From Thermoplasmata archaeon M9B2D (GTDB lineage: Archaea > Thermoplasmatota > E2 > DHVEG-1), in the NCBI GenBank assembly GCA_002900555.1, contig MUGD01000013.1, positions 1 through 27,248 of the forward strand: DNA of 27,248 bases. Direction: 5' to 3'. How positions within the stretch are numbered: position 1 is the first letter of the stretch; every line of letters begins with the position of its first letter. The notes under the pieces were generated by a model that had not been told where the DNA came from, ran no database searches, and saw only the letters and a program-made list of their open reading frames with translations. A program made the position numbers and the translations under genes. Of the stretch, positions 5,825 through 26,625 are shown one piece after another.

Positions 5825-6249
5825 TAATAACGATGTTATGTAGTGACAGTAACGAAACAAAAAAGATATACAGAAGGACAAAGGTGCAATTCGTCCTTAT
5901 TTTTTCTAAAAGTTCTATACTTCAATCTATTTATTTCTTTTTATTTGCTAGAAATCTCATATTTTTTAAAAAAAATTAGTTTTGTTGTAATTTTCTAAAA
6001 AAAAATTTTTTATTATAGTAATGCTTTTTGGATAAACATAAACCGAATACAATTCTGGGCAAACGACACAACAATGAGGCGCCTTTTCCGTATTCATATC
6101 ATTCTCCTCCAAAAGGTGCCTCATCAAAACCTAATAAATAGTCGATTGTTATTACTATCTGGATTCATTACAATAGAAGCAGTTGGCATAGAATCGAATG
6201 AGATATGAAAGGAATATATTCGATAATCATTAAATAAAAAGGAAAACAT
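5809..6249. other. 441-bp AT-rich intergenic region
   Basis: No ORF with coding character on either strand. It holds several T/A homopolymer runs (5930-6015), a near-perfect 14-bp inverted repeat at 6074-6124, and a TATA-like element (ggaatatattcg, ~6210-6221) that could serve the solute operon starting at 6250. Confidence 0.6.
6074..6124. repeat. 14-bp inverted repeat with 23-nt loop
   Basis: The arms are ATGAGGCGCCTTTT (6074-6087) and AAAAGGTGCCTCAT (6111-6124). They match at 13 of 14 positions as DNA and pair at all 14 as RNA, with one G:U. The loop contains TTCTCCTCC, complementary to a Shine-Dalgarno. It stands out in otherwise A/T-only surroundings. It could be a transcribed hairpin or small RNA, or a regulator site upstream of the solute operon. 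Confidence 0.6.
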
Positions 6250-6900
6250 ATGAAACGAACGTTCAAACTAGTCCTCTTTGATATGGATGGGACGCTTCTA
6301 AACGGCAGGACAATATTTGCCTTTGCTAAGAAAAAAGGATTCACCAACCAATTGTCAACAGTTCTTGATTCTTCGAAGGAACCCTATGAAAAAACCCTGG
6401 AAATCGCATCCTTATTAAAAGGGATGCAGTACAAAGAATTGCTTGATATTTTTAGAAACATCCCATTTCAGGAGCATGTCGATACGGTGATACCGCAACT
6501 CCGGGAGAACCACATAAAAATAGCATTGGTCACCGATGGATATCAATGTTTTGCAAATGATCTTAAAAAACGCCTTGGTCTTACTTATGCATTTGCCAAT
6601 AGGCTTATGATACATAACCAGCTCCTGACCGGTGAACTCCTGTTCCAAAATAAAGAACTACAGAAAAGTAGCAATGGGAAAATCTATTCGATTAACAAGC
6701 GTGCTGTCTTAGAGTTCCTTAGCATGATCCTTGATATCAGTCCCAATGAAGTGATTGCTGTTGGTGATGGTTTTGTCGATATTGATATGATACGCGCAGC
6801 GGGGTTAGGAATTGCGTATCGTGCACCACCCGAAGTCCAAACCCAGGCTGACGTAGTCACAGACGATTTACGTGTTTTATTACGGTATATTGAGAGGTGA
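6250..6900 (+). CDS. HAD-superfamily phosphatase, likely for a glycosyl-3-phosphoglycerate
   Basis: 216 residues with all four HAD motifs: D11-x-D13-GT (motif I, FDMDGTLL), T95 in LVTDG (motif II), K150 (motif III, SINKRAV) and GDG..D at 172-177 (motif IV, VGDGFVDIDMIRAAG). The layout resembles the phosphoserine phosphatase (SerB) type, with a helical cap between motifs I and II. It is the first gene of a tight three-gene operon whose next member is a GT81 glucosyl-3-phosphoglycerate synthase homologue. By context the likely substrate is glucosyl-3-phosphoglycerate, or a mannosylated form, yielding glucosylglycerate and phosphate. Sequence alone cannot exclude phosphoserine or another phosphomonoester. 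The ATG at 6250 has only a weak upstream aaagga. Cytoplasmic. Confidence 0.8.
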   Translation: MKRTFKLVLFDMDGTLLNGRTIFAFAKKKGFTNQLSTVLDSSKEPYEKTLEIASLLKGMQYKELLDIFRNIPFQEHVDTVIPQLRENHIKIALVTDGYQCFANDLKKRLGLTYAFANRLMIHNQLLTGELLFQNKELQKSSNGKIYSINKRAVLEFLSMILDISPNEVIAVGDGFVDIDMIRAAGLGIAYRAPPEVQTQADVVTDDLRVLLRYIER

Positions 6901-6904
6901 TAAT

Positions 6905-8107
6905 ATGGACATAAAACAAGAAGAAATAACAACATTGCATGATATGCATGTGGATAAGGTTCAACTGATGAAACAGGTAAGTGACGTTGCGACTGAAATC
7001 CCTGTCTCTGTTATTATGCCCATGCTGTATAAAGAGATAAAAAGCGATGCGTTAGCGAATATTTTAAATCAGCTTAATAAATGTACATACTTAAAAGAAG
7101 TCATTGTTCCTCTTGCCGCTAACAGCGAGGAGGAATTTAGCCATGTAAAGCGGTTTTTTTCAAAGTTGACGATTCCAAAACTCATCATCTGGTGCAACGG
7201 TCCAAAAATAACAAAAATTTTAACAGAATTAAAAACCCAGGGATTAGATGTCATCAGTTACGGTGGAAAAGGACGTGATTTATGGATTGCCCTTGGCATC
7301 GCAAGTATTGAATCGTATGGGATTGCAATTCACGATGCGGATATACAAAACTATGATGAGACAATCCCTACGAAACTTCTCTTTCCCCTTCTCGAGCCAG
7401 AGTTGGATTTTAAATTCAACAAGGGATATTATGCTCGAACCAGTATTGATAAAACGATTCTATATGGACGTGTGTTTCGCTTGTTTCTCCATCCTCTTCT
7501 CCGTGCACTTGTTGATGTATTGGACGATGAACCTGATTTTATTCGATTTCTCCGTGCGTTCCGATATCCGATTTCCGGGGAATTCGCATTAACAAGTGAT
7601 CTTGCACGAGATTTAGATGTTCCCTATGGATGGGGTGTCGAAATCGGCATTATGGCTGAAATCTATCGAAATGTAACCATGAAACGGGTATGTCAGACTG
7701 ATCTTGGGTTCTATGACCATAAACATCAGGAAATCGGCAATTCTGGTTCAGGGCTTGTAAAGATGACAGGCGATATCTTTAAAAGTTTATTGCGAATTTT
7801 AATAGAAGAGGACCATATTCAGATCGACCAATCGTTTTTATTATCCCTCCGAGTTCTCTACCATAAAAATGCTAAAAATTGTATAAAAAAATACCATGCT
7901 GATGCTCGTTATAATGGAATAAAGTACGACCGGCATTTGGAAGAATCAATGATGGAGCAATTCAGTGATCAGATTATGACTGCGGGACAAAATTACATGC
8001 TCGAACCGGTGTACACACGGTTGCCTGATTGGCTTCGGACAATATCTGCGAAAAGGAAAATCAGAGAAGAACTCCTTGAAAACGTCATTGAGAGGAATAA
8101 AGGGTGA
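6905..8107 (+). CDS. gpgS: GT81 glucosyl-3-phosphoglycerate synthase-like glycosyltransferase
   Basis: 400 residues. I place the start at the ATG at 6905, behind gaggtgat that overlaps the previous stop, rather than the GTG at 6872. It has a GT-A fold nucleotide-sugar site: VSVIMPMLYKE at ~35, GGKGRDLW at 120-127 and the metal-binding D144-A-D146 (AIHDADIQ). Downstream are the GpgS-type acceptor and donor motifs: FNKGYYAR at ~171, YPISGEFAL at 221-229, YGWGVEIG at 241-248 and LGFYDHKHQ at ~267. These line up with mycobacterial GpgS motifs as I remember them (SDADL, PLSGEYA, GYGVEIG, LG.RAH). Expected reaction: NDP-glucose plus 3-phosphoglycerate gives glucosyl-3-phosphoglycerate. Donor sugar specificity cannot be read from sequence. 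The neighbouring phosphatase and GT78 enzyme support a compatible-solute pathway. Confidence 0.83.
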   Translation: MDIKQEEITTLHDMHVDKVQLMKQVSDVATEIPVSVIMPMLYKEIKSDALANILNQLNKCTYLKEVIVPLAANSEEEFSHVKRFFSKLTIPKLIIWCNGPKITKILTELKTQGLDVISYGGKGRDLWIALGIASIESYGIAIHDADIQNYDETIPTKLLFPLLEPELDFKFNKGYYARTSIDKTILYGRVFRLFLHPLLRALVDVLDDEPDFIRFLRAFRYPISGEFALTSDLARDLDVPYGWGVEIGIMAEIYRNVTMKRVCQTDLGFYDHKHQEIGNSGSGLVKMTGDIFKSLLRILIEEDHIQIDQSFLLSLRVLYHKNAKNCIKKYHADARYNGIKYDRHLEESMMEQFSDQIMTAGQNYMLEPVYTRLPDWLRTISAKRKIREELLENVIERNKG

Positions 8108-8111
8108 ACGT

Positions 8112-9353
8112 ATGAACCAGGATTGGAATAAAGGGCTGTCATTATCTAAAGAGCTAACCAAGATTTGTGCAACTATTAAACCGCTTGATATTATGGTTGG
8201 CGTCTTATGTAAAGACGTCGAAACAACTATCTTAAACCTCCTTAATGTGATTAATGAGGGGTTGTATCAGCATTTTCCGGATTATAAAAAGGCTATCGTA
8301 GTCTCAAAAGGTCCTTCCGAGGATAGGACCTCCGAAGTCATTGACCTTTTCCAACCCTATAGCAGGATTAATAAAATCGTTACAGATGATATCTATGATG
8401 GTGGAAAGGGAGCAGGGGTTCGAACGATTATCGAAATCGCTCATGAGACCGATGCAAAATGTGTCGTATTACTCGATGGGGATTTACTGAGTATTAAACC
8501 AGTTTGGATTCAGACGATTACCAACGCGATTATCTATGGAAGAGCAGATTTGACGGTCCCGTACTATATCAGGGACAAGTATGATGGAGTTATCACCAAT
8601 AATCTCGTGTATCCCTTTACACGAGCGTTATATGGATTAGATGTCAGACAACCAATCGCCGGGGAATTCGGCTTATCGAAGAATTTGTACGAAGTATTGC
8701 GTAACCATCCTTTGTTCCCGCCAGACTTTGGTGTTGATATCTTTATTGTTACTGTTGCGGCAGCGAAGGAGATGAAGGTAAAAGAAGGGCTGTATTCATT
8801 GAAGATCCATGAATCGACAACCCGGTATCTTGAACCCGAGACACTGCTAATTCCAATGTTTAAAAAAGTAACAGGAAGTATGTTTGAACTTGCACGATAT
8901 TACGAGGATTATTGGAAATATCGCCCCCTAACCAAAACCAAGACGTATTATAGAAATTGCTACAGCAAACGACCAATCCCTGTGAAAGTTGATATCGAAA
9001 AACTACAACATATGTTTATGACTGAATATACTACAAAAAAAGAGGCATTAGCACGGTTTCTCCCGCAGAATATTCTTACCGCTCTTTCTGATACTGTTGA
9101 TCAGCAGAAGATCCTTGCTGCTGAGCTTTGGGCTGACATCGTCTATAACTTTACTGCCGCCTATAAACAAGCAACAAACACATCTGAAAAACAAAATATT
9201 CTTGACCTGTTTAAGACACTCTGGATTAGGCGCTTTGTGAGTTATACGATTGAAACAAAGGATATGGATATCAATGAAACAGAGGTTTTCCTGCAGAAAC
9301 AAGCAGAAGTCTTTGAGGAGAAACTCCCCTATCTTCGTTCGATTTATCCCTGA
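8112..9353 (+). CDS. GT78-like mannosylglycerate / mannosylglucosylglycerate synthase
   Basis: 413 residues from the ATG at 8112, preceded by agggtga and 4 nt after the gpgS stop; a TTG at 8076 is rejected. GT-A fold: GGKGAGVRT at ~97-105, D122-G-D124 (VLLDGDLLS), RQPIAGEFGLS at 179-189, FGVDIFIVT at 206-214 and a catalytic-region histidine at 233 (LKIHESTTRY). The C-terminal helical part (LFKTLWIRRFVSYT) resembles the end of Rhodothermus mannosylglycerate synthase (LWTTRVLNYT from memory), which marks the GT78 family. Members transfer mannose from GDP-mannose to glycerate; the Petrotoga enzyme MggS uses glucosylglycerate. Because gpgS and a phosphatase lie in the same operon, glucosylglycerate is the likelier acceptor. 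The last 10 bp overlap the convergent MscS gene. Confidence 0.75.
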   Translation: MNQDWNKGLSLSKELTKICATIKPLDIMVGVLCKDVETTILNLLNVINEGLYQHFPDYKKAIVVSKGPSEDRTSEVIDLFQPYSRINKIVTDDIYDGGKGAGVRTIIEIAHETDAKCVVLLDGDLLSIKPVWIQTITNAIIYGRADLTVPYYIRDKYDGVITNNLVYPFTRALYGLDVRQPIAGEFGLSKNLYEVLRNHPLFPPDFGVDIFIVTVAAAKEMKVKEGLYSLKIHESTTRYLEPETLLIPMFKKVTGSMFELARYYEDYWKYRPLTKTKTYYRNCYSKRPIPVKVDIEKLQHMFMTEYTTKKEALARFLPQNILTALSDTVDQQKILAAELWADIVYNFTAAYKQATNTSEKQNILDLFKTLWIRRFVSYTIETKDMDINETEVFLQKQAEVFEEKLPYLRSIYP

Positions 9354-10252
9354 TTGCTGTCGTAGCCTACGTTGTATTTGTTTTTCTGTTTAAGAAGGAC
9401 TTCTGTATGCGGATAGGCAAATTCCACATCCTTTGTTTGTCTGATACGATGGAAGATTTCTCGTCGAATATTCGTTGCAATTCGATTCCTTTGAATTGTG
9501 AGTGTGTAATACCGTACGGTGACTTCAATACCTGACTCTCTAAATTGTAATCGAATATGAGAAGTTTTTGGTACTCGTTGTGGAAAGTCTTTGTAAAATG
9601 GTTCCATTACTGTGTGAACAGAAGAGGTGATAATTTCTTCGGCTTTTTCTAAGTTGCTCTCATAAGTGATGGCTGTTACTATCTCTACCAAAATATAGTC
9701 TGATTCACGGGTATAATTAATTATTTCTTTTTCAAAGATCATTGAGGTTGGAATCATGATTATTCTGCCTGACCGCTCTTCTCCTTCAATAGTTCCCCCA
9801 ACTTCATTTAGGAATATGTGCGAAAGCGTTATATCTGTGACATCTCCTTTTAAAGTCGATATAAGTATACGATCACCGATATCAAAAGGTCTTCTGATAA
9901 TAAGGATAAGCCATGCAACAACACCACTGATAGGTTTTTGAAGAGCCCATCCAAGAGCAACAGATAATAATCCTGCAACAAATCCAAGTTGGGTAAGATT
10001 ACCATAAAATAAGGATATTAGGATAATTGTAAGAAAGAAAATAAAGATAAATTTGATTAACCCAAGGAAGACCTTTATATTGGAAATCTGTTTTTTTGTT
10101 TTTACTCGTTTCAAAAGATACCATTGTATGATTTTTAAAATAATAAGAAAAATGATTGACGAAAGAAGCATGATAACAACTATCTGGAGAATATCGTATC
10201 GTGATTGTAAATATGCAATAAAGTCATCTATTATTGATGCGATAGGTATCAT
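9344..10252 (-). CDS. mscS: MscS-family mechanosensitive channel (1)
   Basis: 302 residues. The ATG at 10252 is preferred to the TTG one codon upstream. Membrane segments lie at ~22-41 (IVVIMLLSSIIFLIILKII), ~63-85 and ~88-115. The last is the Gly/Ala-rich pore helix (LGFVAGLLSVALGWALQKPISG). The MscS beta domain follows (RRPFDIGDRILISTLKGDVTDI, IPTSMIFEKEIINYTRE) and then an alpha/beta cytoplasmic domain. Such channels open on membrane tension and release small solutes during hypo-osmotic shock. It converges with, and overlaps by 10 bp, the end of the compatible-solute operon, so the solute makers and a solute release valve are adjacent. No transporter partner is expected; family members work as homoheptamers. 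Confidence 0.9.
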   Translation of the reverse strand: MIPIASIIDDFIAYLQSRYDILQIVVIMLLSSIIFLIILKIIQWYLLKRVKTKKQISNIKVFLGLIKFIFIFFLTIILISLFYGNLTQLGFVAGLLSVALGWALQKPISGVVAWLILIIRRPFDIGDRILISTLKGDVTDITLSHIFLNEVGGTIEGEERSGRIIMIPTSMIFEKEIINYTRESDYILVEIVTAITYESNLEKAEEIITSSVHTVMEPFYKDFPQRVPKTSHIRLQFRESGIEVTVRYYTLTIQRNRIATNIRREIFHRIRQTKDVEFAYPHTEVLLKQKNKYNVGYDSNQG

Positions 10253-10496
10253 CAACCGTTATAACTGTTTTTTTAGGAGCCTCTTCTTGGCATCTCTCAA
10301 GATATGAATACAAATTCATATTTACTTTTTTCTTATAAATGTAACTGATGATTATGATTATAAAAATGTGCTCGTAACAAAAAAAGATAATTGATTGTTA
10401 TTCATTTATGTCTCACTTTTTTTCGAAAAGAGGGAATAATTATTTAAACCGAGAAGCGTTTTTCCAACACAAGTTATATCTGAGAATTTGAATGAA

Positions 10497-14887: not shown

Positions 14888-15006
14888 TGAACCAATCGCA
14901 GCAAATGAAACAAAAAATCCTAAAATATCATTAAATCATTTCTTCGCATTATTCGAATGAACCAAAAATTAAAAAAATCAATAGCATCTACTGGTTTTTG
15001 ATTTCA

Positions 15007-16116
15007 ATGAATATCACAATAAATTTAGGGGAGTTCTTCACTGAATTCCTACAGGAAAAAAACATCACATCCGACCCGATAATTGGGCAAGTTATCGCCG
15101 CAGTAATCCTATTTATTCTCGCGTTGATTATTGGATGGATTGTCTTTCATTTATTCGAGCATTATTTCTCTAAATGGGCAAAGAAAACGAAAACAACCAT
15201 AGATGATGAAATCATTAAGAACATAAAGCGACCAATCTATTTCTTAGTCATTCTTGTTGGCTCATGGATAGCTGTAGATCAACTGATATTTCTCGATGTT
15301 TATTTGGTCTATACGAACTTTATTTTTCTCAGTTTGGAGATTTTGCTTGTTGCCTATATTATTACTCGTGTTATCAATGTGCTTCTTGCCTGGTATGTAG
15401 AGAGAAAAATAAAGAAAAAGGAAAAACCAGTCAGCATGAATATCCTTCTTGTCTTTCGAAAATTGATTCATGCGGTTGTGTATATTTTCGCGTTCCTTGT
15501 CATTCTTTATCTCAGCAGAATCGATTTATCAGGTGCATTGGTTGGTCTGGGGGTCGGTGGTATTGCTATAGCATTTGCCCTTCAAAACGTGCTGAGCGAT
15601 GCGTTTAGCGCGTTTTCCATTTTCTTTGATAGACCCTTTGAAATCGGTGATTTCATCGTCATCGGTGATGATGCAGGGACCGTTACGCATATCAGTATGA
15701 AATCGACAAGAATAAAACTCCTTCGAGGAGAGGAACTTGTTATCTCTAATCGAGCTATCCTTGACAAAAACATCCATAATTATAAAAAACTGAGAAAAAG
15801 ACGAATTGCTTTTACTATCGGAGTCACCTATGGGACCCCGATAGAGAAACTAAGGAAAATAGAAGGAATGATCCGAGACATCATAGGAAAATGTCAGTTA
15901 TGCCAGATAGATCGAATTCATTTCAGAGAATTTGGAGCATATAGTTTGAATTTTGAGATTGTCTATTACCTCGATTCGTCTGATTACAATACCTATATGG
16001 ATGTTCAACAACAGATTAATTTCGGAATCGCAGAAGCTTTTGAGAAAGAAGGTATTGAAATCGCGTTCCCAACACAAACTGTCCTCCTTGAGAATAGTAC
16101 CGTAAAAGTTACATAA
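15007..16116 (+). CDS. mscS: MscS-family mechanosensitive channel (2)
   Basis: 369 residues from the ATG at 15007; an in-frame TTG at 14998 also exists and lies ~25 nt from an AT-rich TATA-like stretch. Four hydrophobic segments occur: ~27-49, ~81-100, ~104-127 and ~155-175. The pore helix follows (LSGALVGLGVGGIAIAFALQNVLSDAFSAF). The MscS beta domain has FDRPFEIGDFIVIGDDAGTVTHI and RGEELVISNRAILDKNIHNY, followed by the C-terminal alpha/beta domain. It is longer at the N-terminus than channel 1 and differs in sequence, so this is not a recent duplicate. Likely tension-gated release of osmolytes under hypo-osmotic stress; two different channels may cover different tension thresholds. Confidence 0.9.
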   Translation: MNITINLGEFFTEFLQEKNITSDPIIGQVIAAVILFILALIIGWIVFHLFEHYFSKWAKKTKTTIDDEIIKNIKRPIYFLVILVGSWIAVDQLIFLDVYLVYTNFIFLSLEILLVAYIITRVINVLLAWYVERKIKKKEKPVSMNILLVFRKLIHAVVYIFAFLVILYLSRIDLSGALVGLGVGGIAIAFALQNVLSDAFSAFSIFFDRPFEIGDFIVIGDDAGTVTHISMKSTRIKLLRGEELVISNRAILDKNIHNYKKLRKRRIAFTIGVTYGTPIEKLRKIEGMIRDIIGKCQLCQIDRIHFREFGAYSLNFEIVYYLDSSDYNTYMDVQQQINFGIAEAFEKEGIEIAFPTQTVLLENSTVKVT

Positions 16117-24816: not shown

Positions 24817-26625
24817 ATGATACAAAACATTGTAGAATCTTCAAAAAAAGACCTCATTGAGCATTTATGGGAAGTCGACCCCGCTATTAAAATAATCCTT
24901 AAAAAATCAGATTCATCCCGTGAAGCTAGAGAAAAAATCTTTGAGTATTTAAACAGGTTAGACCGTCATTATACAAGTATCTACGCAGATAATTACTTTA
25001 AAGAATTACATACTATTGAAAAAACTAACGCTAGAGAATGCATAAAAATTCTAAAAAATGTGATTAGGACGGAAAACGAAAGAACAACACATTTTTCAGC
25101 ACTTCGTGCACTAATAGATCTTGCAAAAAACAAAAAAGATGCAGTTAACCATGTTCAGGCTGGTTTTGTATGTGAATTTATCAATTTATTTAAAGGGATA
25201 AACGGAAAATCAGACAAGACAGATGATGTCTTTATTCTTCCATCAGACAGCACTGAAGCTTCCATTGTGCGGTCTGAAAAACTCGATAGCTATGCAAAAA
25301 AAATGAATGAATATTTAAGTAGGCATAAAAGCGGATTAGAACCAGAATTGATAGTTAAACAAAAGGCATTGAAGAAAAAGATTTTAGACTATTTTCAAGC
25401 GTCTGAAACGGATTGGAAAACATATCAATGGCATCTCACTCACGTTATACGAGAGAAACACAGTCTATCTTCGTTAATATCATTAGAAAACGACGAGTTA
25501 GAAGGATTACAGGTCGCTGAACAAAACCAGATTCCCTTCGAGATAACGCCATATTATCTCTCCCTGTTTAATGAAACAGGGCGAACCAGAGATGACCAAG
25601 GAATAAGAGCACAAGTATTACCAAGTAAAACCTATTGTACAAACGTTATCGATAATCGAAAAAAGCATATTGATATGGATTTTATGGGAGAGAAATCAAC
25701 AAACCCCGTCGAAGGAATCACCAGACGATACCCTCAAATCGTCATCCTTAAACCAGTAAACGTCTGCCCTCAAATCTGTGTGTATTGTCAAAGGAATTGG
25801 GAATTAGAACCCTCAACGCAGGTAAAAACAAAAGATGAAGACATAAATAATGCAATCGAATGGATCAACCAAAATAAGTACATCAACGAAGTGTTGGTCA
25901 CTGGGGGAGATCCGTTTATTCTCCCAGATGATTATCTCGATAAAATGTTAGCGAAATTAGCATCTATTGACCATGTCGAACGAATCCGCATTGGGACACG
26001 AACACTTGTGACACTTCCATGTCGTATCACCGAGGCACTTGTTGATATCCTACACCAATATCATGAGATAGGGAAACGGGAGATCTGTATCGTGACACAT
26101 TTTGAACATGTCGCAGAAATAACCCCGGAGGTTTTAGAGTGCATAAAGAAGATAAGAAACAGAGGCATAAGCATTTACAATCAGCAAGTGTTTACCTACT
26201 ATACTAGTCTAAAGTACCAGACGGCAGCGCTGCGAAAAATATTAAAAATAAGTGGAATTGACCCCTATTACACCTTTAACACAAAAGGAAAAGAAGAAAC
26301 CATTGATTTTAGGGTCCCCATCGCACGGATTCAACAAGAACGGAAAGAGGAAGCACGGTTTTTACCAGGTCTTGTTAGGACAGACGAACCGGTTTTTAAT
26401 GTTCCAAAACTAGGAAAATCACATTTACGAGCATGGCAGGATCATGAGATAATAATGATCTTAGCCTCCGGACAACGAGTCTACAGATTTTACCCATGGG
26501 AATCAAGCGTCACCCTGGTTGATGCGTATCTCTATACAGATGTCTCTATTTATGATTACTTGAAAAGATTAGCGAATGATGGACAGGATCTCGACGAGTA
26601 TAAAACCATTTGGTATTATTTTTAA
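24817..26625 (+). CDS. KamA-family radical SAM aminomutase, likely glutamate 2,3-aminomutase
   Basis: 602 residues behind taggtgat. The radical SAM cluster motif is C317-x3-C321-x2-C324 (VCPQICVYCQRNW), followed by TGGDP (SAM-binding, ~362-366), IGTRTLVTLP and VTHFEH typical of the lysine 2,3-aminomutase family. The PLP lysine is expected at K534 (VPKLGKSH). Lysine aminomutase uses two aspartates (293, 330) to hold the lysine side chain. Here the aligned positions are K490 (PYYTFNTK) and N528 (VFNVP), the same change reported for glutamate 2,3-aminomutase. The expected reaction is then L-glutamate to L-beta-glutamate, a compatible solute. About 190 residues of extra charged helical sequence precede the usual N-terminus; its role is unknown. 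Cytoplasmic, oxygen-sensitive. Confidence 0.78.
   Translation: MIQNIVESSKKDLIEHLWEVDPAIKIILKKSDSSREAREKIFEYLNRLDRHYTSIYADNYFKELHTIEKTNARECIKILKNVIRTENERTTHFSALRALIDLAKNKKDAVNHVQAGFVCEFINLFKGINGKSDKTDDVFILPSDSTEASIVRSEKLDSYAKKMNEYLSRHKSGLEPELIVKQKALKKKILDYFQASETDWKTYQWHLTHVIREKHSLSSLISLENDELEGLQVAEQNQIPFEITPYYLSLFNETGRTRDDQGIRAQVLPSKTYCTNVIDNRKKHIDMDFMGEKSTNPVEGITRRYPQIVILKPVNVCPQICVYCQRNWELEPSTQVKTKDEDINNAIEWINQNKYINEVLVTGGDPFILPDDYLDKMLAKLASIDHVERIRIGTRTLVTLPCRITEALVDILHQYHEIGKREICIVTHFEHVAEITPEVLECIKKIRNRGISIYNQQVFTYYTSLKYQTAALRKILKISGIDPYYTFNTKGKEETIDFRVPIARIQQERKEEARFLPGLVRTDEPVFNVPKLGKSHLRAWQDHEIIMILASGQRVYRFYPWESSVTLVDAYLYTDVSIYDYLKRLANDGQDLDEYKTIWYYF

Follow-up and report, generated by a model that had tools for sequence, protein, structure and literature searches.

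Introduction

Glucosylglycerate is a low-molecular-weight compound that shields cells against salt stress. Persephonella marina reportedly carries a gpgS-gpgP-ggs operon whose third glycosyltransferase is a one-step glucosylglycerate synthase, Methanococcoides burtonii is said to have a gpgS-gpgP pair whose phosphatase is a homologue of MpgP, and Petrotoga mobilis is said to reach mannosylglucosylglycerate by two routes, GpgS/MggA and Ggs/MggS. Here we compare these systems with three adjacent genes at positions 6250 to 9353 of contig MUGD01000013.1 from Thermoplasmata archaeon M9B2D; the whole stretch analysed, 27,248 nt long, is called the window. The genes encode a SerB-like HAD phosphatase, a GpgS and a second glycosyltransferase, which we call GT_B. 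A published list of organisms that produce glucosylglycerate already includes M. burtonii, also an archaeon (PMC11009771, excerpt). An earlier note on this DNA, made from the sequence alone, had described mannosylglucosylglycerate as known mainly from Petrotoga; Rhodopirellula baltica is a further organism for which the compound has been reported (PMC3694870, excerpt). In the open-access literature, with subscription papers outside the search, we found no paper linking Thermoplasmata or Thermoplasmatota to glucosyl-3-phosphoglycerate or glucosylglycerate.

We read the locus as a three-gene compatible-solute operon with a three-step scheme, to which, taken as a whole, we assign a probability of roughly 55%. 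GpgS would transfer glucose from NDP-glucose to D-3-phosphoglycerate, giving glucosyl-3-phosphoglycerate, a step strongly supported by homology. The SerB-like HAD would then strip the phosphate to yield glucosylglycerate, as comparative genomics suggests; this role is held elsewhere by MpgP/GpgP. Finally, GT_B would probably add a second hexose to glucosylglycerate, forming mannosyl- or glucosyl-glucosylglycerate. By analogy with other solutes of this kind, the product would build up under osmotic stress. Formation of glucosylglycerate by GpgS and the HAD is, by inference, well supported.

Results and Discussion

The three genes are packed and linked across the class

All three genes lie on the forward strand: the HAD gene at 6250..6900, gpgS at 6905..8107 and the GT_B gene at 8112..9353, the last two starting with ATG. 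The intergenic gaps are 4 nt each (6901-6904 and 8108-8111). Two purine-rich stretches read from the sequence are probable ribosome-binding sites, GAGGTGAT for gpgS (6894..6901, +), which overlaps the HAD stop codon, and AAGGGTGA for GT_B (8100..8107, +), which overlaps the gpgS stop codon. Longer mechanical open reading frames begin upstream of the chosen starts, at GTG 6872 for gpgS and TTG 8076 for GT_B. The close packing described in the earlier note was confirmed for reading frames and coordinates, and the linkage recurs across the class. The nearest named relative locus, in Thermoplasmatales archaeon SM1-50, shows 83%, 92% and 88% identity for HAD, GpgS and GT_B, respectively.

We surveyed 80 genomes of the same class as the window. 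GpgS was present in 47 and the HAD in 46, counting matches of at least 40% identity, three of which are contig-edge or split pieces (G036, G039, G077). A third gene was found in 42, as GT_B in 40 and as a bacterial-type relative in the GT_B slot in two. All 42 genomes with a third gene also had GpgS and none of the 80 had it without GpgS; GpgS occurred without a third gene in five (G010, G022, G026, G043, G067), and 33 had neither. Fisher's exact test gave p = 1.6e-17 for the association of the third gene with GpgS and p = 1.4e-12 for that of the HAD with GpgS. Because the genomes are related and the metagenome-assembled genomes (MAGs) incomplete, our Fisher values, which ignore kinship, are not strict probabilities. 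Of the 39 genomes with a complete trio, 26 had it as an uninterrupted block; GpgS adjoined the third gene in 30/42, and the HAD adjoined GpgS in 36/42. The apparent split of gpgS in G003 was dismissed as a scaffold artefact, with runs of unknown residues at both breaks. Across a phylum sample of 389 genomes, GT_B was matched in 46, and the 43 solid cases were the 42 class genomes plus G101, where GpgS (43%) and the HAD (27%) stand beside a bacterial-type transferase; weak GT_B fragments in G131, G148 and G206 were left out. This nested pattern, in which GpgS occurs without the third gene but never the reverse, fits an enzyme acting downstream of GpgS.

Of the 12 genomes in which gpgS and GT_B are not neighbours, seven (G002, G003, G029, G030, G037, G038, G047) have a GT4-type glycosyltransferase gene between the two, on the opposite strand; in G013 such a gene stands between gpgS and the HAD. 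Examples from these loci are L002:6567-7751, L066:7715-8899, L065:6198-7382 and L084:3926-5095. Its product could add a further sugar. In the divergent loci L087, L082, L089 and L084 (G010, G012, G013 and G014), the gene after gpgS resembles, on inspection by eye, one for a protein repair methyltransferase.

The second gene is an archaeal gpgS

Identification of the second gene as an archaeal gpgS, predicted to make glucosyl-3-phosphoglycerate, is strongly supported. The protein matched NF040724 (GpgS_Meth) with 538.9 bits over residues 1-397 of 400; all nine relatives examined matched this model too, none of them passing its cut-off. Its best sequence matches in the PDB bear the name GpgS. 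Seven PDB matches were obtained, four of them (named GpgS or uncharacterised) with E values of 7e-9 to 7e-6; one of the seven is a mannosyl-3-phosphoglycerate synthase and two are named uncharacterised. The motif residues Lys, DxD, Glu and His, together with an Arg that precedes the acceptor Thr position by two residues, were present in 16/16 sequences, and the acceptor position itself held F in 11, V in two, T in two and Y in one. The full-length match and these residues bear out the earlier assignment of this gene as GT81 GpgS-like.

A SerB-like HAD proposed to stand in for MpgP

The window phosphatase belongs to HAD-IB. Its best NCBIfam model was TIGR00338 (SerB), at 119.9 bits and under the cut-off of 144.15, and its best PDB match was the phosphoserine phosphatase of Methanocaldococcus jannaschii (E 2.9e-27). 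An alignment of 28 sequences, the window protein and 27 relatives, showed the core catalytic residues D11, D13, K144, D167 and D171 in 28/28, T at the Ser99 position in 26/28, and Asn170 retained in one. In SerB, Glu20 and Arg56 serve serine recognition (PMC6321591). Both were changed in all 28 sequences, position 20 holding R (23), K (3), L (1) or H (1) and position 56 holding I (26) or V (2). Among the best 25 of 31 families listed for the window HAD there was no MpgP model, and one HAD relative matched MpgP models with 22-24 bits over about 30 residues.

MpgP was matched in 10 of the 80 genomes, and seven matches were long and strong (G006, G007, G042, G061, G062, G067, G080), none of them over the NF001218 cut-off of 362 bits; short matches of 20-33 bits in G041, G057 and G060 were left out of the counts. 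The HAD was present in 42 of the 47 GpgS genomes, only one of which (G042) also had MpgP. Four of the five GpgS genomes lacking the HAD had MpgP (G006, G007, G061, G067), the fifth, G010, being a 0.6-Mb bin (Fisher's p = 1.4e-4 for exclusion among GpgS genomes). An MpgS over its cut-off was detected only in G062, adjoining the MpgP of that genome; matches of about 19 bits in G031 and G047 were left out. No MpgS match was found in G006, G007, G061 or G067, so MpgS does not explain the MpgP of these GpgS genomes. In G067, MpgP comes directly after gpgS and scores 250.4 bits with TIGR02461 (cut-off 244.35). In G007, a decayed HAD relic precedes gpgS, without an open frame and with seven stops in the matched part, and MpgP lies on another contig. 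The near exclusion and the G007 relic form the pattern of non-orthologous displacement. These results support the earlier proposal that the SerB-like HAD is a non-orthologous glucosyl-3-phosphoglycerate phosphatase in place of MpgP/GpgP, which are of type HAD-IIB. The gene after MpgP in G042 (L093:278-1498) appears by eye to be glycoside hydrolase-like.

Alternatively, the HAD could be the phosphoserine phosphatase of the serine pathway, or an enzyme with both roles, standing beside the transferases for another reason. The best PDB and NCBIfam matches point that way, and in the seven HAD genomes tested (G001, G002, G003, G043, G046, G050, G053) the HAD was itself the best SerB match (110.9-125.4 bits), with nothing over the cut-off; the SerB search in 11 genomes gave a single hit over it, in G101. 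Four genomes (G019, G020, G041, G044) also retain the HAD without GpgS, possibly as a leftover or for a second function. We nevertheless regard this explanation as improbable, as the HAD scores under the SerB cut-off, nearly excludes MpgP, adjoins gpgS in most genomes having both, and is missing from 34/80 genomes. In G019, G020 and G041 the HAD gene sits after a gene that is thymidylate kinase-like by eye, as in L002. SM1-50 has a second HAD (L086, 240 aa) that passes the archaeal phosphoserine phosphatase-like model TIGR01491 (159 over 151.9); it also lacks Glu20 and Arg56 on the alignment used.

GT_B is related to GT78 and GT81

GT_B had 620 homologues at E 0.001, and the four with organism names among the 120 listed were Thermoplasmatales or Thermoplasmata. 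A collection of named genomes held 22 GT_B loci, 20 of them titled Thermoplasmatales, Thermoplasmata or Thermoplasmatota; the remaining two are L011, titled only "archaeon", and L014, titled Spirochaetes. L014 bears a gpgS and a GT_B of Thermoplasmatota type, and its GT_B groups in the tree with that of L012, which has a Thermoplasmata title; L014 is probably a mis-binned contig.

Searched against the PDB as a single sequence up to E 10, GT_B retrieved, besides a ribosomal protein with no relation to it, the mannosylglycerate synthase (MGS) of Rhodothermus marinus with a best E of 0.044. A profile of GT_B combined with the bacterial-type relatives reached GpgS (1.6e-8) and MGS (9.6e-7). In profile comparisons, GT_B matched the bacterial type with E 4.6e-69 over 399 columns, MGS with E 1.5e-7 (hhalign; 297 columns, extending into the C-terminal region), and archaeal GpgS with E 6.3e-6 over 227 columns. 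A 75-row tree recovered MGS as a single clade with support of 100/100 and the bacterial type as a separate one with 99/99; GT_B lay between them. The tree does not settle how GT_B and the bacterial type are related, because GT_B formed one group in just 4% of bootstrap trees; long branches and uneven composition were also flagged. On sequence comparison, GT_B is related to both GT78 and GT81, is assigned to neither of them and is placed outside the GT78 MGS clade. The earlier note had called it GT78 MGS/MggS-like and had suggested trees and an active-site check for both glycosyltransferases. The GpgS motifs and the distant relation of GT_B to MGS, with its catalytic residues, stood up to this check, but membership of the MGS clade did not.

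GT_B could in principle be a mannosylglycerate synthase itself, so that mannosylglycerate would be formed in parallel, with GDP-mannose and D-glycerate as substrates. Besides the profile match extending into the C-terminal region, precomputed domains assign PF21969, the MGS glycosyltransferase domain, without PF21967 to 20 of the 120 listed GT_B relatives. Up to E 10, neither domain was detected in the window GT_B or the near-identical P0001, and P0003, P0012, P0024 and P0113 matched PF21969 at 19.2-25.0 bits (cut-off 27) with PF21967 absent. A search for PF21969 across six genomes gave no match, as did 14 controls, and is uninformative. We consider this option very unlikely, since GT_B falls outside the MGS clade, PF21967 was in none of the six GT_B proteins scanned, and the third gene depends on GpgS.

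Acceptor, donor and product of the third enzyme

The equivalents of MGS residues K76, D100, D102, R131, T139, D192 and H217 were kept in 31/31 GT_B sequences. Two places before the Thr139 equivalent, all 16 GpgS sequences carry Arg, which we take to be a phosphate binder; in GT_B this position holds V (27), L (2) or I (2), and the bacterial type has T there and MGS has M. The threonine itself (Thr139 of MgS, Thr187 of GpgS) binds the glycerate carboxylate (PMC2581804, excerpt). It was present in 31/31 GT_B sequences. A kept Thr and a replaced Arg fit an unphosphorylated acceptor, given the role assumed for the Arg. The same residues bear on an order resembling the MggA route reported from Petrotoga, with which the gene set is compatible: GT_B would glycosylate glucosyl-3-phosphoglycerate and the HAD would then dephosphorylate the product. 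Absence of the GpgS Arg from all 31 GT_B sequences makes such an order hard to credit, and GpgS and the HAD occur without GT_B in G026 and in G043, in the latter on a 1.79-Mb contig, indicating that the pair can work alone.

As to the donor sugar, the Ser of the PLSGE motif is argued to keep mannose out of GpgS (PMC2581804, excerpt). Its equivalent is PIAGE in GT_B (Ala in 31/31), PIGGD in the bacterial type and PLGGE in MGS. The lost Ser would suit a mannosyltransferase such as MGS; the motif is not decisive, however, because 3/16 archaeal GpgS also carry Ala. The guanine-binding Gln66 of MgS aligns to a gap in GT_B.

Another explanation is that GT_B is a Ggs-like one-step glucosylglycerate synthase using NDP-glucose and D-glycerate, so that the operon would hold two parallel routes. 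The carboxylate-binding Thr and the missing GpgS Arg agree with this, as does the JGI label glucosylglycerate synthase on three of the 120 listed GT_B relatives and six of the 120 listed bacterial-type relatives; in the separate MGS list JGI uses mannosylglycerate synthase. The name glucosylglycerate synthase is a source label and no test, however, and other listed members are named hypothetical or cell-wall glycosyltransferase. Moreover, the third gene never occurred without GpgS in 80 genomes, and an independent route would be expected alone sometimes. We therefore find one-step synthesis possible but doubtful. Strict dependence of the third gene on GpgS favours elongation of glucosylglycerate; one-step synthesis finds support in the JGI labels and in the operon reported for P. 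marina. Judged from sequence, the product may be mannosylglucosylglycerate, glucosyl-glucosylglycerate or simply more glucosylglycerate, all three being live options. A bolder reading, which we hold possible but less likely than not, is that this class of uncultured Thermoplasmatota recruited its glucosyl-3-phosphoglycerate phosphatase from the SerB (HAD-IB) branch, exchanged for MpgP in some lineages, and that a hitherto undescribed family of glycosyltransferases extends glucosylglycerate to a di- (with an inserted GT4 gene possibly tri-) glycosylglycerate, so far unseen in archaea.

Several observations weigh against the three-step scheme, in addition to the SerB matches of the HAD and its presence in genomes without GpgS. 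GpgS scores under the curated NF040724 cut-off of 700 bits. G042 bears both phosphatases, and three genomes with a GpgS of 51-53% identity (G012, G013 and G014) have GT_B on a different contig. Incompleteness of MAGs and joint loss of linked genes inflate co-occurrence. Lastly, in the operon reported for P. marina, a precedent no less close than Petrotoga, the third glycosyltransferase beside gpgS and gpgP is a one-step glucosylglycerate synthase.

A bacterial-type gene in the same slot

In G050 and G053, GpgS is 81-82% and the HAD 69-73% identical to the window proteins, and the third gene product is only 33% identical to GT_B. Ten of the 120 relatives listed for the G053 protein were named: one is from a Thermoplasmata archaeon (86%), and nine, at 66-70%, are from bacteria (KSB1, Calditrichota or just bacterium). 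By eye, the PRC-barrel gene of the window neighbourhood is found near the operon in both genomes, and the Lrp-like gene of that neighbourhood in G053. A plasmid collection searched with the bacterial-type protein returned just one partial haloarchaeal match. As GT_B is the common form (40/42), the bacterial-type gene probably replaced it in place, a direction that rests on few named sources. The transfer between domains raised by the earlier note is likely for the third gene of these two relatives. It is not visible for the GT_B of the window, which belongs to a family widespread throughout the class. That GT_B and its bacterial-type counterpart occupy one slot points to a common step for the two.

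If correct, the scheme brings a further class of phosphatase into the synthesis of sugar-glycerate solutes and extends the pathway to uncultured Thermoplasmatota. Close relatives would then offer a natural function test: one operon slot contains either the archaeal or the bacterial-type transferase, and either HAD or MpgP acts as the phosphatase. The archaeal operon would also help to predict the function of the bacterial-type family, which comprises at least 7,981 protein clusters.

Surroundings of the operon

An inverted repeat at 6074-6124, upstream of the operon, has arms of 14 nt that are 93% complementary, separated by a spacer of 23 nt; no Rfam match at the gathering score was found in the window. 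Beta-amino acids serve as archaeal osmolytes, and a KamA-family radical SAM protein is encoded at 24817-26625 (+), with 306 bits to TIGR00238, over the cut-off, and with the glutamate and lysine 2,3-aminomutase models below their own cut-offs. This gene may represent a second solute route in the window. A gene for an MscS-type mechanosensitive channel at 9344-10255 (-) is convergent with GT_B and overlaps its end, and SM1-50 has an 85% relative in the same position; judged by eye, a second such channel is probably encoded at 14998-16116 (+). In bacteria, such channels let out compatible solutes on down-shock (PMC11009771, excerpt).

Comparison with known systems

Among single enzymes, R. marinus MGS (GT78, PDB 2bo4) resembles GT_B in its GT-A core, with equivalents of K76, D100, D102, R131, T139, D192, H217 and M229, and in a weak similarity through the C-terminal region; it differs in forming a separate clade, in PLGGE rather than PIAGE and in PF21967, which GT_B does not match. 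M. jannaschii SerB (PDB 1f5s) shares the HAD-IB family and core catalytic residues with the window phosphatase, whereas its Glu20 and Arg56 are not conserved in the window type.

At the level of whole systems, the resemblance to Petrotoga mobilis lies in gene content, a GpgS with a second glycosyltransferase, mannose transfer by GT_B being putative. M. burtonii has a GpgS of the same archaeal family, NF040724, but is said to use an MpgP homologue, in contrast to the HAD-IB phosphatase and the third gene of the window. The operon reported for P. marina likewise brings together GpgS, a phosphatase and a third glycosyltransferase, and some GT_B relatives carry the JGI Ggs name; the likeness is at gene-set level, and the window differs in being archaeal and in having a SerB-like HAD-IB phosphatase.

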